From contig JANXWY010000050.1 in assembly GCA_025350905.1 (NCBI GenBank), positions 1-50,305 of the forward strand: a stretch of DNA of 50,305 bases, written 5' to 3'. The notes under the pieces are model-generated. The model saw only the letters and a program-made list of their open reading frames with translations. It was not told the origin of the DNA and did no database searches. Shown here one piece after another: positions 948-43,629 of the stretch. Position 1 is the stretch's first letter; each line of letters begins with the position of its first letter. The stretch comes from Verrucomicrobiota bacterium (GTDB lineage: Bacteria > Verrucomicrobiota > Verrucomicrobiia > Limisphaerales > JADLHS01). The position numbers and the translations under genes were made by a program.

Positions 948-2694
948 TCAAGCCGAAGGAGGAATCGGCACGCGCACCTCGATCTGCGTCCCCGCGCCCG
1001 GGCGGGAGTGTACGGTCAGCTCTCCCTGCACCATGCGCACGCGTTCGCGCATACTGACGATGCCCAGCGCACCGTTGGTAGCAGCGGCCGAGGAATCAAA
1101 ACCTTGGCCGTCATCGGTAACGCTGAGATGAAGTCCGTTTGCGCCTGCCGCCAATTCCACGCGCGCGCCGGAGGCCCCGCTGTGCTTGATCACGTTCCGC
1201 AGCGCTTCCTGCGTGATCCGATAGAGACACAGTGCCACATCCTGTGGCAGTTCGCGCGGTATCTCATGCGACTTAAACGTGATGACGATTTCGTGCGTCG
1301 CCGCCACCTCTTTGCAAAATCCGCGCGCCGCCGCCACCAGCCCCAGCTGGTCCAGTTTGGCAGGATGCAACTCATGAGCGAGCCGGTGGACGTCGGACGA
1401 AAGATGTTTCACCACCCCGGAAAACTCCTCCATCCGGTCCGCGATGACCTCGCGTTGAGCCGGTGGCTTTTGCCCGAACATTTCCAGTTCGACGGAAAGC
1501 AGCGCGAGGCGCTGGCTCAAGTCGTCGTGCAAATCGCGGGCGATCCGGCGGCGTTCCGCTTCCTGCGCGTTAATCAGTCGCCCGCCCAGCTCGCGCGCTA
1601 CGGATTCCGCGTTGCGCCGCCCGGTGATATCTGCCACCACGCCCAGGATGCGCGTTGGTTTACCGCTGGCATCGCTTTCCATGCGACCGACCGACGTCAG
1701 CCACCGCACCGTGCCGTCCGGGAGCAGGACGCGGTATTCGGTATTGTATTGGCCCGTGCCGGCCACTGCCTGCTCGATGGCGCGCGCCCGCGAGGCGCGA
1801 TCCTCCGGATGCACGCGGGCGAGGAGATTGGCCAGGTTCAATTCGATTTTTGGGGAATACCCGAAGAGCCGGTTGCATTGCTCACTCGTCCAGACACGCT
1901 CGGTCGGAATTTCTCCGCTCCAGAGACCAAGCTGCGCCGCGTCCACCGCCAGCGACATCCGTTGCTCGCTTTCCCGCAGGTCGCTCGCGTGTTGCGTCGC
2001 GCGCAAGACGTCTTCACTCAACTCCATTCCCATGGCCACCAGGATGGCCAGGTAGGCAAAAGTGAGGAGATAGGGCGTCCGGATGATCTCTTCGTCCACC
2101 AGCGCCGCTTGCGTGCCGCCGGCCAGAACAAAAAAGGTGATGGCGCCACCGATCACGGCCGCCCGACGGTGTGCCCCGCGACGCCAGAGCGTGACCGATG
2201 CATCGGCCACGAACACCAAAAGCAGCAGGACACCCAGGTAAAATAGGGCATTCCACGGATTTTCAACCCCGTCCGCCACCGTGTAAGTCGCACCACCAAA
2301 AGTCGAAATCTTCCGGATGCCGGTGAGCTGAAGGTAAACTAGTTTTGGCTGCGGCATTAAATCGGCGACCAATGCCAGACACGACAAACCGGGGGCCAGG
2401 AGCGCGAGCCACTTTCTGCCGGTGCCAAAGAACACCCACACGAATGCTGCCGTCGTGACGACCTGCAGTCCCGCCGTGATATCCAGCCAACGCAGCAATC
2501 CCAGATATTGAGCGGGGCTGTCCGCGCGGGCCAAGGCCAGTTCAAAACAGGAATAAACCGCCACCACGAAAGCGTTCAGAGCGAACAGCAAGTGGGCCTC
2601 CTGGCGTACGGCGGAGACCCACCCGCAACTGGATCAGTCCCATTGTGACGCAAGCGCCAATCGCCATAGGCCACAGAATAGTAATCCAAGTCAT
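948..2694 (-). CDS. Membrane PAS sensor histidine kinase (HisKA_3), frameshifted near its N-terminus
   Basis: Counted from the TTG at 2591, the protein has an N-terminal block of about six membrane helices (residues 1-190), a PAS domain (about 205-325, ending GVVADITGRR), a HisKA_3 dimerisation helix with the phospho-acceptor His355 in RRRIARDLHDDLSQR, and a HATPase_c domain with the N-box ITQEALRNVIKHS and the G-box VTDDGQGF. This is the NarX/DegS kinase architecture, and the NarL-type regulator at 33-581 is the obvious partner. The open frame starts abruptly inside the membrane domain. A different frame upstream begins at an ATG at 2694 and encodes MTWITILWPMAIGAC and a first helix. Removing one C from the CGCC near 2608 would join the two. 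So the gene probably starts at 2694 and carries a one-base insertion, either a real lesion or a sequencing error. Confidence 0.85.
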
Positions 2695-2869
2695 ATCTGA
2701 TGTTCCGAGTGACGGTCGGGTACGTCAAACAGGTTCGCCATCCGGCACGGACGTATGACTCTCAAAGTGCCGAATCACGGCAAGCTTTTCAAAAGTTACT
2801 TGGGCGCATATTTGCCCAAGGCTCCACAGGTCCTTCAATGGATACATGTAGCGGATGACGAGGCGGACT

Positions 2870-3330
2870 GTCCGTGAACTTGGACGCGGACTAAACAAGG
2901 CTTTGGATTGCCGGAGGACGTGGAAAGTCTGCGTCCATGGACTGACCGTGGACAAGGATTATTCAAGGACTGTGCGCGTTTCTTCCGTAGTTTGTTTCGC
3001 ACACGTTGCATGGACGCTCTGCGAACGCCGTATTGGAAATTGCGTGGAGGATTCGCTGGTTGCAGCGCGGACTGCGGTGTGACTTTCCGACGGGACGCCA
3101 ACCTAGATGTTTCGTGGACTTCACCGGCAAATGCCGGGACATTGCGCCAACCGCTGCGCGGACATTTACCGGTGTTGCGTGGGATGTTTCCCAGCAACTG
3201 CCCGGACACAGCGCGGCTGTTTCCCTACGAATACCCGGACGATTTATCGGAATTTGCGCGAATGCTTCGCCGTACGTTGCGCCGGATGCTGCGCGGACAT
3301 CGCGCGATTTCCTGCCTGACATTCATGTAA
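2870..3330. repeat. Degenerate ~11-bp GGAC-phased tandem repeat
   Basis: The stretch divides almost without remainder into 11-12 bp words, mostly beginning GGA(C/T) and ending GCGC, TTCGC or CCC: GGACATTTACC, GGATGTTTCCC, GGACACAGCGC, GGCTGTTTCCC, GGATGCTGCGC, GGACATCGCGC. Spacings between successive GGAC words cluster near 11, 22-23, 33, 44-45 and 57. Frames on both strands stay open over long parts of it, as expected from stop-poor repeated words of a length not divisible by three. I therefore read it as non-coding repeat DNA rather than a gene. It lies upstream of the kinase gene, with no IS end visible on either side. Function unknown. Confidence 0.65.
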
Positions 3331-3534
3331 GGGGATGCTGTCTAACCAAAATGACCGGCTTTCCTATTCCAGAAAGCCGCCAAAGATTTCGTTCGACTGA
3401 ACACCTCAAATTGATGCGTCCATGAGCAAATTACCAAGCACTGAACGGGCGTTCTGAGAGCTGGACCCCGAAATCAAGACCAGTGGTTAAGTTAGACTTT
3501 GCGAGGACTGCTCAATGTGAGAAAGAGCAGATCC
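3331..3534. other. Intergenic stretch with possible IS3 left end
   Basis: No gene is visible. TGGACCCCG at 3462-3470 resembles the terminal TGxACTGxCCCC-type ends of IS3 elements and sits about 70 bases before orfA, so it may be the left inverted repeat. No right-end partner remains. Confidence 0.3.
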
Positions 3535-3843
3535 ATGAAACAAAAACGCAGGCGGTATAGTGGCGCCTTGAAGGCCAAAGTTGGGCTTGAGGCGGTGATG
3601 GGAATCAAAACCACGTCGCAGATTGCGCGGGAGCACCAGGTGCATCCGTTGCTGGTGACGCAATGGAAGCGGATCCTTCTGGATCGATTGCCAGGGATCT
3701 TTGAGCGCGGGCCCCAAGTCCCGGACGAGAGCGAAAAGACGATCGCGCAACTGCATCAAAAGATCGGCCAGCTGACGGTCGATCTGGACTGGCTCAAAAA
3801 AAAGTGCAGGCAGTTGGGCCTGTCGCCCGACGACGAACGCTGA
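3535..3843 (+). CDS. IS3-family transposase OrfA
   Basis: This 102-residue protein (from MKQKRRRYSG) is a helix-turn-helix OrfA: the HTH_Tnp_1 core covers roughly residues 8-50 (GIKTTSQIAREHQVHPLLVTQW) and is followed by a Leu-zipper-like helix (EKTIAQLHQKIGQLTVDLDWLKKKC) used for multimerisation in this family. I prefer the ATG at 3535 over one 12 codons upstream because family members start near KRRRYS. Near the end lies a run of eight A followed by G at 3796-3804, the classic slippery site for -1 frameshifting into OrfB. OrfA looks intact, but the element is dead because OrfB is cut (see next entry). Confidence 0.85.
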   Translation: MKQKRRRYSGALKAKVGLEAVMGIKTTSQIAREHQVHPLLVTQWKRILLDRLPGIFERGPQVPDESEKTIAQLHQKIGQLTVDLDWLKKKCRQLGLSPDDER

Positions 3844-4180: not shown

Positions 4181-5103
4181 CACCGCCGACGCCAGCACCA
4201 AAACTTTCGGCGCGGCTGATCCGACGTTCACGGCAACTTACGTCGGGTTCATGAACAGCGAGACTCCCGCCGTGCTCGGCGGTACGCTGGCCTTCGCCCG
4301 CGCTCCTGGCGAAAGCGTCGGCAGTTATCCCGTCACCCCCCAGCGGTCTGACCAGTGGCAATTACACCATCGCCTTCAACTCCGGCAACCTTAGCATCAC
4401 CAAGGCAGCACTGGCTGTCACCGCCGATGCCAGCACCAAGACTTACGGCGCGGCTGATCCAACGTTCACGGCGAGCTACGTTGGGTTCATGAACAGCGAG
4501 ACGCCGGCGGTGCTCAGCGGCACGCTAGCCTTTGCTCGCGCGCCCGGCGAGAACGTCGGCAGTTATCCCGTCACCCCTAGCGGTCTGACCAGTGGCAATT
4601 ACACGATCGCCTTTAACCCCGGCAACCTGAGCATTACCAAGGCGGCTCTGGCTGTCACCGCCGATGCCAGCAACAAGACTTACGGTGCGGCTGATCCGAC
4701 GTTCACGGCGAGCTACGTTGGGTTCATGAACAGCGAGACGCCGGCGGTGCTCAGCGGCACGCTAGCCTTTGCTCGCGCGCCCGGCGAAAACGTCGGCAGT
4801 TATCCCGTCACTCCCAGCGGGCTGACCAGCGGCAATTACACCATCCCCTTTAACCCCGGAAGTATGAGCATCACCGCACCGGCCCCGACGATCCTTTCAA
4901 TCAATTTCCTTAGTCCAACTGACGTTATGATTACGTGGAGCGCGGTCAGCAATGGCAACTATCGTATTCAGTATAAGGTAGCCATGGCGGCGACGAGCTG
5001 GACCGACCTCACCGGCGACGTTACCGCTGACAACAGCACGGCATCCAAACACGACGCCCCAACTGAGTCAGCTCGGTTCTATCGAGTTCAGGTCTTGCCA
5101 TGA
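4181..5103 (+). pseudogene. C-terminal remnant of an MBG-repeat surface protein
   Basis: Three tandem units of 79 residues, each with KTYGAADPTFTASYVGFMNS and a closing SGNYTIAFNPG, match MBG domains, Ig-like modules of bacterial surface proteins. They are followed by a small domain ending ARFYRVQVLP (residues just before the stop), a C-terminal module also seen twice at the start of the 9558 protein. The 5' part is missing, replaced by transposase fragments at 4181. The first unit carries an extra C in the run at 4336-4341, which shifts the frame relative to the other two. Unit starts, taken at the KTYG/KTFG codon, are 4200, 4438 and 4675 (238 and 237 bases apart). The remaining open part from 4489 has no evident start signal of its own. 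Confidence 0.8.
4200..4870 (+). repeat. Three 237-bp tandem MBG-coding repeats
   Basis: Near-identical DNA units begin at 4200, 4438 and 4675. The second and third differ at very few positions, so they duplicated recently or are kept alike by gene conversion. The first has diverged more and holds a one-base insertion. Confidence 0.85.
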
Positions 5104-18500: not shown

Positions 18501-21500
18501 ATCAATGTCGTATTGAATGCGCAGGCGAATCCGCTGGATCGCCTCGTGACCGCCATGGATTTGATTCAAAACTATTTTCTCCGCTTTAACACGAACGGCG
18601 CGCTCGCCTTTTACATCCCGGCGCCCAATCCGCCCGTGCTGTACGATGCGAGTGGCGGCTTGCTCGGGCAGGCGCAATTGCAGAGCCTCACCAGCGCACT
18701 CCACCCCCAGGACCTGCTGAATTCCATTAATTCCTTTGACGTGACCAACCTTCGCCGCGGCAGTTTTTATCCCACCGAACAGGGATTCATTCGCGGCTAT
18801 CTCGATGGCCAATTGCTGGGCGTCCCCATCAATCGCTCGGACATTGTCGGCCTGCCGGCAGACGCGAACCGCAGTGAGGGTTTTCTCAGTATTACGTCCA
18901 GCATTCCGAACGGCTCGTGGCTGAAACAATTCGTGACGCAAGCTTCGCTGATCTTCGACATCCGCGGGGTGCCGCCGGCACCGATTGAAACCCGTTTCAC
19001 CAAGTTGCTGGCGCAAATGCAGGCCGCCAAGGACACCAACGCCAATGCCACGGTATTAATGCAACTCGCCGACGACGCCATCACGGCCCTGACCGGGGAC
19101 ATGCCCAAGGCCCGGCTCACGGCCGATTTCGCCGCCAACAACCTGCTGATGCCGGCGCCGATCACGGATCTGGTCGCCTTCAGCGGCAGCGCGCAACTCC
19201 ACGCCTTCTCGGTGCGCTACAATCCGACTTTCGACCCGACCAACAATGGTCCACTGGCCCGAGTGCAACGCGAAGGTGGCATTGCGCTCCAAGGCGCGCT
19301 CAACTTGAGGGCGAACGGATCGACGCTGGCCGACATTCCCAACGCGGAACTCAGCGTGGTACCAAATGGCGCGAACCTGCCCGCCTTGGCCGGCCAGTTC
19401 CAGCTCGTGTCGCTCACCCTGCCCGGCGCGCAACTCAACGACGTCCGGCTGGATTTCGCTTCCGCGCCCGAACCGCATTTCTCCGGTTCCGGCTCCATCG
19501 CCGGACTGGCGGTCGGTTTGTTCGGCATTCAGCCGCTCGCGAGCGGCGCCCTGACCGGCCAGGTGGCGGTGGCGCGCACCGGGCCCAATGCCGCGAGCGT
19601 CGCGCTGGCGGTTGCCGCCGCGCAAATTTCTCTCCCGTCGATTTACGGCGACCGAATTCTCATCCATGGCACCGAGCGGAATGATCCGTTTACCTTCTCG
19701 ACCACCGGGCCGTGGCACGCGACCGTCGAACTCACAAACGGAATCACCGTTGGCGCCGCGGGCGTGAACCTCGTCCGACTCGGCGCGGGTGGTTTGCTGG
19801 ACCCGATCGCCTTTCGTGGCAATGGCACGAGTACCGGAGCTTTCACCGTCGGGTTCGGACCGGCAGTTTCCCTTACACTTTTCCCCGGTCAGGCGGCAGA
19901 GCGAACGGTGACCCTCGCCGCCGGGGGCACGGGTTCGCTGACCGTGAGCAGCGACGGGACCTTTGGGCTCAACGCGACCATCGGGGGCGCGGGCTTGTCG
20001 TTTGACGGCATCGCGGTACCCGCGAGCGCCAGTCTGGCGGTGAGCAACAACGGCGTGGCATTCACATGGACGATCAATGGCGGCACGACGGCAACGCTCA
20101 GCCTGGCGCCCGACGGTACTGTGAGTTTCAACGGCACCGCCGATTTGCCACCGCTGAACTTTGGTGTCTTCCAATTGACCGGGACCAATGGTGGCAATCT
20201 GCAAGGCAGTTTCAACCATGACGGCTTCGCCGTAACCGCCGGCGCGAAGCTCACCCTGCTCGCCGATTGGCTGCAAAATCAGTCCGTCACGCTGTCCGCT
20301 TTCACGTTCAGTAACAGTGGGGCATTCTCACTCGTCATTACCAACCCGGGTAATTCGCTGAGCTTTGGCGGATACCCGTTTGATCTCACCGGGTTTAGCC
20401 TCAACCGAACGCCGACCAATCAGGGCGGCGTGACCAGCTTGAGCCTGAGCGGCTCCCTGCACGCCGCGCCCAATTTCCCAGGCTGGCCGGCGGTGCCATT
20501 TAACGGGTCGATCTCGTCGGCGGGCGCGGTCAACCTGGCTGCCACGACAACCAATGTGAACCTGTTTGGTTTTGCGGTGCGCGGGCTGACCAACCGGCTG
20601 ACGCTCGCCACCGGACAGTTTGCAGGGCAGTTCACCTCGGAATTTCAGCTGGGCAACGGCACAGGCTTGTGGTCTCCGCTGGGTTCGAACTGGTTCAGCG
20701 GGACGCTTAACGTCGACGGCTCCGGACAATTCCAAACTGTTTCGCCGGGAGTGACGTTCGCCGGCTTTGGATTCTCGAACAGCGTGTTCTCGTTCACCAA
20801 AGCTTCGGCCAGCGCGCTGCCCGAAGTGCGATTGGAAGGGGATCTGTCGTTGAATGGCTTCCCGACGATGCGGCTGGCGGGTTCGTTCAGCCCGCTCGGT
20901 GGCGTGGCCATCACGCCCCTGCCGCCGACCGTCGTGCCGTTCCCCTACCCCGCGCTCGATGCGCAACTTTCGCTGGTGCTTAACAACACCGGATTCAATG
21001 TCACTGGCCAGCTGCACCAACCGCCGCTCCCGGCGTTCACACTGAGCGGTTTTATTTCAAACTCCGGCGCCTACCACTTGACGGGACTGGGCGGGGGCGT
21101 GGTGGATGGCTACAACTTCTCGGCGGTCAGCGCCACCCTCGATCGGCTCGCCGGCGGCGGCGCTTCGTTGACCGCCACCGGCACCCTCGCGGTGCCGAAT
21201 CTTGGTAGCTATCTGGTCAGTGGCGCTTTCACGAATGGCGGCGGTTATGCGCTGTCGGCGTCGATCCCACTGGGATTAAATTTGACGGGGTTGCCGATCG
21301 GCAGCATTGGAACATCCGGTGGGGCGACATTGTTCTGGACTTCCACCGGCGTCAAAATTTCCGGCATGTTAGCCGGCGGGGTGCTCGCGACCGTCACGCC
21401 CATCGCCACAATCAGTGGCGAAGTCGCCTACGCGCCCGGCACCGGTAGCCGGACGCTCTCGGCCAGCGCGGTGATCCAATCGCTCACGAACGGGCAGTTC

Positions 21501-43553: not shown

Positions 43554-43629
43554 GGGGTCGTAGCTCAGTTGGTAGAGCGTCTCGTTCGCAATGAGAAGGT
43601 CGCAGGTTCGAATCCTGTCGGCTCCACCA
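43554..43629 (+). tRNA. tRNA-Ala (anticodon CGC)
   Basis: A 76-base cloverleaf with encoded CCA. The acceptor stem pairs GGGGTCG with CGGCTCC, and includes the G3-U70 wobble that identifies alanine tRNAs. The D-arm is GCTC...GAGC, the anticodon stem TCTCG/TGAGA has the loop TTCGCAA (anticodon CGC, reading GCG), and the T-arm holds GGTTCGAATCC. No integrase gene or att duplication is apparent beside it. Confidence 0.93.

Follow-up and report, generated by a model that had tools for sequence, protein, structure and literature searches.

Positions 2856 to 3305 (plus strand) of the window, the 50,305-nucleotide stretch of a Verrucomicrobiota contig analyzed here, carry a non-coding array of GGA(C/T)-containing units of 5-6 bp that is more regular than first described, all units lying in one orientation on a 17/3-bp lattice. 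Sequence comparison with relatives indicates that this array is one half of a two-part element, the other half being a conserved segment (T) on its 3' side. The array is probably the protein-binding half of a putative origin of transfer (oriT) region in MobF mobile elements of Verrucomicrobia (Limisphaerales and relatives), and the window copy would be a relic from which the nicking half has been cut off by an insertion sequence (IS). The analysis gives a candidate MobF oriT region of Verrucomicrobiota at the sequence level, of which no description was found in the open-licence PMC literature, together with a searchable model.

Periodicity of the array in the window

Within window positions 2850-3330, self-identity exceeded that of 500 dinucleotide shuffles at lags 23 (z 4.9), 68 (z 4.7), 11 (z 4.2), 34 (z 3.9), and 12 (z 3.1), and for the 21 GGA[CT] sites in 2856-3305 the mean cosine at a period of 17/3 bp was 0.65, compared with 0.02 +/- 0.085 for random placements, none of 5000 of which scored as high. 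The periodicity of about 11 bp claimed in the initial annotation is thus borne out. The expectation that such a peak would occur here alone held for lags 11 and 23, for each of which all eight best windows of a sliding scan across the 50-kb window started at 2781-3061, and mostly for lags 11 and 12 combined (seven of eight), but failed for lags 12 and 22 taken alone, whose best windows lay elsewhere (6201 and 47561, respectively). A lattice scan of the rest of the window says little, with two of 28 windows that had enough sites lying outside the array region (both -0.33).

Spacings of 6 and 17 bp occur in the window array beside those of 11, 23, and 34 bp, indicating that the basic step is about 5.67 bp (17/3), half of 11.33 bp, and that sites alternate between both faces of the helix. 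Helical phasing was a sensible lead, but the proposal that the recurring bases lie on one face of the helix did not survive. Segmentation with an EM model returned 78 units of mean 5.66, a weaker result than the spacing histogram in that shuffles also favour three-unit sums of 17 (38% versus 57% observed). The 450 bases contain 21 GGA[CT] but 2 GTCC/ATCC sites, and the sole report of Tandem Repeats Finder at the array was a 33-base piece (3262-3294). While the pattern placed by the initial annotation at 2870-3330 is real, its limits are corrected to about 2856-3305, and the conserved T segment, extending to 3457, belongs to the same element; as first held, the array is not itself an IS.

The conserved segment T as a candidate origin of transfer

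When the window's own genome (6.27 Mb, 489 contigs) was searched, another array, clearer than the first, turned up on contig C11, and further arrays were found at related T loci, in line with the initial proposal to look for more arrays in the genome and its relatives. The window and C11 arrays both end in T, in which a small hairpin (H0) and a first conserved part (T1) precede a long inverted repeat (T2), itself followed by another hairpin (T3). In the window, T occupies 3315-3457. Its H0 (3315-3332, plus strand), an imperfect small hairpin read in the sequence at the array/T junction, is placed like the paired H0 stems of other loci; perfect pairing reaches 4 bp here, and a perfectly paired stem of at least 5 bp is found in 37 of 43 loci, with varied arm sequences, such single stems being not rare by chance. 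T1 (3328-3412, plus strand) matched its profile at E 5.3e-27, this sequence being itself in the profile, and contigs C257 and C11 of this genome hold T1 copies that are 93-95% identical to it. Alignment located the left arm of T2 (3438-3457, plus strand), and the match to relatives stops at about 3457-3465. The rest of T is replaced by IS-like sequence (3462-3843, plus strand) that includes a transposase HTH frame (3499-3843; PF01527, E 7.5e-7) and of which 3462-3500 recurs several times in genome G011. Profile searches of the window returned no match to T2-T3, no relaxase, and no stb-like gene; the remainder of T2 is absent, as is the T3/nic part. Since T is broken inside the left arm of T2 and followed by IS-like sequence, the window copy is a relic without T3.

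When 293 genomes of the same order were searched with a covariance model of T2-T3, 32 gave matches, frequently with several in one genome; the loci used to build the T1 and T2-T3 profiles are among the loci that these profiles match. Among 17 named contigs with an exact T3-derived pattern, 15 bear Verrucomicrobial names, most of them Limisphaerales or subdivision 3, and the other two are called simply 'bacterium'. No match to array-plus-T DNA was found among PLSDB plasmids. Folding of whole T copies is stronger than that of shuffles (z -7.4 for DNA and -3.8 for RNA), the value depending on the stretch taken (z -2.2 to -6.0 forward for six 300-base stretches). A reading of T2 as an integron attC site was dropped, as the attC motif GTTRRRY is not conserved among copies.

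T lies upstream of and co-oriented with a gene for a MobF (TrwC-type) relaxase (PF08751, E 5.6e-54; NCBIfam MobF) in 26 of the 28 loci having both, the exceptions being L107 and L124. The nic-like motif TT[TG]GTCTG is present in 60 of 68 T2-T3 matches, and of the remaining eight, two run into a contig end. The oligonucleotide of R388 reads GTATTGTCT/ATAG, compared with GATTTGTCT/GG in T, and the R388 source states that a purine is required after the cut (PMC4176350). The downstream, co-oriented MobF relaxase and the R388-like nic motif together suggest that T is most likely an oriT. Two marks of a MobF-type oriT, an adjacent relaxase gene and a nic motif with inverted repeats or hairpins near it, are found at related loci, and both are absent from the window copy. 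Forty stretches around T2-T3 matches were fetched, rather than every match.

Two kinds of array and the genes beside them

Of the 42 usable loci, i.e., those with a T1 junction and a T2-T3 match (43 minus L108, void at a contig edge), 41 carry an array immediately 5' of T; the loci are related, sometimes share a genome, and hence are not independent. The one usable locus without a called array (L054) has 230 bp upstream before the contig end, with three GGA[CT] sites. Six named loci that duplicate genome-search loci were left out of the array, H0, and relaxase/nic counts. Against 68 T2-T3 matches there are 43 recognized T1 junctions, so that about 25 T copies have no recognized junction or array.

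Small genes running away from T are here taken to be traK-, traL-, and traM-like, names given by position. The 41 arrays, typed by thresholds set after the sequences had been seen, comprise 26 short arrays of a second kind (type B) with a traK-like gene, a two-unit form at L092, 13 arrays of the kind found in the window (type A), and one type B array without a traK match (L120). Thus, where a traK-like gene lies beside T, the array is type B in 26 of 27 loci, the 27th being L092, and where it does not, 13 loci and the window carry type A, with GGA[CT] on the 5.67-bp lattice. Type B units are GCG[AG]C or GTTGA, and both use spacings of 10, 13, 20, 23, 33, and 43 bp. No type A array was found at a traK-like locus among the usable loci, and in the fetched stretches, some limited by contig ends, no traK- or traL-like match was found beside type A arrays except for a traL fragment in L097. 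Type A occurs with both relaxase clades seen (L057, L110, and L135, with about 78-90% identity to the query; L089, L095, L099, and L106, with about 51%), and type B is also found with relaxases of about 51-54% identity (L115 and L116), indicating that the kind of array follows the traK-like gene and not the relaxase. Arrays flanking the putative oriT come in two mutually exclusive designs that track the presence of accessory genes. As a separate observation, a conserved stretch left of the type A array is common to L057 (180-330) and L099 and may mark the left part of the element.

Across 13 type A arrays (6500 bases, 298 GGA[CT] sites), chosen by eye and by a 6-mer scan that is biased toward GGAC-rich sequence without being able to impose spacings longer than 6, enriched spacings were 6, 11, 12, 17, 22, 23, 28, 34, 40, 45, 51, 56, 57, 62, and 68 bp, with strong enrichment at 11, 17, 23, and 34. 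Spacings of 7-10 and 13-16 bp were seen 0-2 times each, compared with about 14 expected; at longer range the gaps between allowed spacings fill in (e.g., 24 seen 13 times and 47 seen 15 times). When self-identity was combined across these arrays, lag 11 stood at z 22.7 and lags 2 and 3 were depleted, whereas random windows of the same loci peaked at multiples of 3 (lag 48, z 5.1; lag 3, z 4.6; lags 12 and 33, z 3.9). Between homologous type A arrays, the GG core is 95-98% identical versus 78-92% at nearby positions (sites chosen by motif in either partner), and 16 of 28 indels longer than 4 bases in nine array pairs are lattice steps by hand count (34, 12, 17, 40, 11, 68, and 51 bases), the rest and many indels of 1-2 bases not being so. 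Spacing remains quantised even in arrays too diverged for good alignment. Single-strand folding is weak for type A (z 0.7 to -3.4) and moderate for type B (z -0.9 to -4.6), which makes duplex DNA the likely form of type A. Together, the sequence comparisons point to duplex DNA that would be read by a protein, its register kept by selection and perhaps helped by in-register duplication. A 17/3-bp lattice predicts sharply how protein subunits would sit on the DNA.

The AF2 model of the traK-like protein has three helices and is HTH-like; fold searches with it returned nothing below E 0.001, and comparison of the protein with NAH7 StbA by hhalign gave a probability of 0.5% (E 0.12). The traL-like protein carries KGSLGKS (KGNLGKS in L116), resembling the motif of ParA-type ATPases. 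It had no significant match to NAH7 StbB, and fold searches with its model (pLDDT 58.5) returned many Rossmann-type folds, TP228 ParA (E 0.017) among them. Among PLSDB plasmids, there was no match to the traL-like protein and none at E 0.01 to the traK-like protein, while for the L132 relative of the latter E was 3 or more with the limit raised to 10. Where an element has stb/traKL-like genes, its array is probably bound by the small HTH protein that they encode; type A elements are without such genes, and their binder must then come from elsewhere (a co-resident element or the host). A search for a gene family specific to type A loci as a candidate source of the binder found none, the most widely shared clusters being out-of-frame readings of the array, with E1/E2 cargo recurring in three loci. 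A small HTH-like gene was also seen between T and the relaxase gene with either kind of array (L089, 6893-7207; L099, 420-812; L115, 4237-4659), and the two that were tested had no Pfam match.

Known systems, competing explanations, and cargo

The closest known counterpart is the 11-bp-period stbDR array of plasmids R388 and NAH7. The R388 source describes stbABC beside oriT, with two sets of five 9-bp direct repeats, 2 bases apart, that are bound by StbA, needed for plasmid stability, and affect conjugation, and notes a deviant Walker A motif in StbB (PMC3098194). In the NAH7 spacer the 11-bp lattice is exact (z 5.5 at lag 11, mononucleotide shuffles), with TGCA at 19760, 19771, 19782, 19793, 19826, and 19859. 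Both plasmids have a direct-repeat array with a period of about 11 bp between oriT and a divergent stbA, the same place as the arrays described here, and the NAH7 order stbC-stbB-stbA, spacer, relaxase is that of type B loci. The layout of type B, an array with a traK-like gene, thus matches R388-type stb, while homology of the proteins to StbA and StbB is not established. In contrast, type A has a half-turn (5.67 bp) lattice, a length of about 300-640 bp as analyzed, another motif, and no stb-like genes; for this last reason it cannot be filed as an stb system, although it may work like one. The initial annotation knew of no named element with such a structure, but the array is half of an oriT-like region with the R388 stbDRs as the nearest named relative. 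The kind of element is therefore known, and the half-turn lattice, the length, the alternation with stb-like genes, and the host group are new.

In the F oriT, too, sites for an accessory protein (sbmA-C) lie next to where a MobF-type relaxase nicks, but these are few, have another motif, and adjoin their own traM gene. The RP4 (IncP) relaxase is a MOBP enzyme, unlike the MobF enzyme here, and staphylococcal plasmids with SmpO sites, of which there are two (ossA and ossB) and no array, have a relaxase of another family. F TraM tetramers bind four GANTC motifs cooperatively (PMC8136818), and efficient transfer requires the sbm sites, although the relaxosome can form without them (PMC12117103). 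RP4 TraK is counted as an StbA homologue, and the region to which it binds, between nic and the traK gene (PMC3098194), has the same relative place as the array; SmpO sites set oriT specificity and occur on plasmids without transfer genes as oriT mimics (PMC8136818).

In the oriT-region explanation favoured here, an oligomerising DNA-binding protein would read the duplex array with subunits every half turn, the DNA would be slightly underwound at 11.33 bp per turn, and the complex would place the element so that the relaxosome can work and/or its circular form is inherited, in the way that StbA does on the stbDRs of R388. The place of the array 5' of T, the place of T before the relaxase gene, and a lattice that stays strict despite sequence divergence support this explanation, against which weigh the failure to find a binder gene specific to type A, the lack of a significant match of the traK- and traL-like proteins to NAH7 StbA and StbB, the many T copies without an array, and the absence of a relaxase, an stb-like gene, and T3 from the window itself. 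Its chief rival, which we consider unlikely, is that the array is purely a partition site (centromere) of the excised or plasmid form, beside oriT for historical reasons and with no role in transfer, long direct-repeat arrays being typical of such sites. The R388 source is consistent with this, in that StbA acts mainly in stability and lowers conjugation and the traL-like KGSLGKS resembles ParA-type ATPases by the motif rule given there (PMC3098194). Yet the array abuts T in all but one of the usable loci, type A loci are without the traK-/traL-like pair (save the fragment in L097), and L089 carries a tyrosine integrase (PF00589), so that some carriers are integrated elements.

A decayed minisatellite without function, grown by in-register duplication and carried along by oriT, would explain why the units are degenerate and why some indels are whole lattice steps, but it is improbable given the conservation of the GG core, the quantised spacing of arrays that align badly, and the alternation of array kinds with the traK-like gene. 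Less probable still is an operator array for neighbouring cargo genes with no link to transfer: type A does lie between T and cargo that is often transcribed away from T (L089, L104, and L117), but cargo varies by locus, the neighbours in the window, L090, and others are unrelated, and T is the constant partner. A coding sequence or structured RNA is scarcely credible. Several long open frames cross the array because stop codons are rare in the motif, whereas periods of 5.67 and 11.33 bp are a poor fit to codons, lags 2 and 3 are depleted, and single-strand folding is weak. Four overlapping frames across the window array had no Pfam match at E 0.01, the closest array pair (L021/L117) shows flat mismatch fractions across the three codon positions (0.10, 0.14, and 0.13), and the indels of that pair (-34, -12, and 1) are not triplets. 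The initial view that the array is not in a coding frame is upheld by these results, and conservation of one frame at the protein level was not found in this homologous pair. Rfam 15 at gathering score matched one tRNA (43554-43626) in the window and nothing at the array, and gave no match in six T loci.

An extension of the oriT-region explanation is put forward tentatively, the chances being somewhat against it. Mobile elements, several of which adjoin anti-phage defence genes, may have lost their stb/traKL-like genes and carry instead, beside oriT, a very long half-turn lattice of about 50 to 110 unit positions that nucleates a continuous filament of host or helper protein on underwound DNA, which would do the work of positioning and transfer without a binder of their own and would constitute a new class of oriT accessory region. 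The combination of array and T also marks non-autonomous islands, some of them next to defence genes, whose mobility is otherwise difficult to recognize. Twenty proteins picked near type A arrays at seven loci included defence-type families in six loci, a survey of type A only from which no enrichment is claimed; matches were to Hachiman HamA/HamB (L104), methyltransferases (L089, L117, and L095), Vsr (L117), and E1/E2 (L095, L106, and L110). The sensor histidine kinase gene beside the array (948-2591, minus strand; HisKA_3, HATPase_c, and PAS) lies outside the element. The initial annotation placed the array upstream of this gene, an association that is incidental, since no array match was found in 10 kb around the kinase ortholog of the same-genus genome G004 (84% protein identity), where the DNA match ends at window position 2739.

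Several further repeats were observed. In L057 (980-4040), L096 (6746-10256), and L056 (921-2412), each element has two or three copies of T2-T3, separated by small cargo genes; the cargo includes DNA-alkylation-repair-like and DUF6036 nucleotidyltransferase genes (L057) and glycosyltransferase and radical-SAM-like genes (L096). Relaxase-mediated oriT recombination could be the source of this cassette-like arrangement. Elsewhere in the window, a 237-bp unit repeated 2.9 times with 90% matches (4181-4875), downstream of the IS remnants, codes for MBG_2 domains (PF18676), and an 18-bp unit is present in two exact tandem copies near the contig end (50063-50098).
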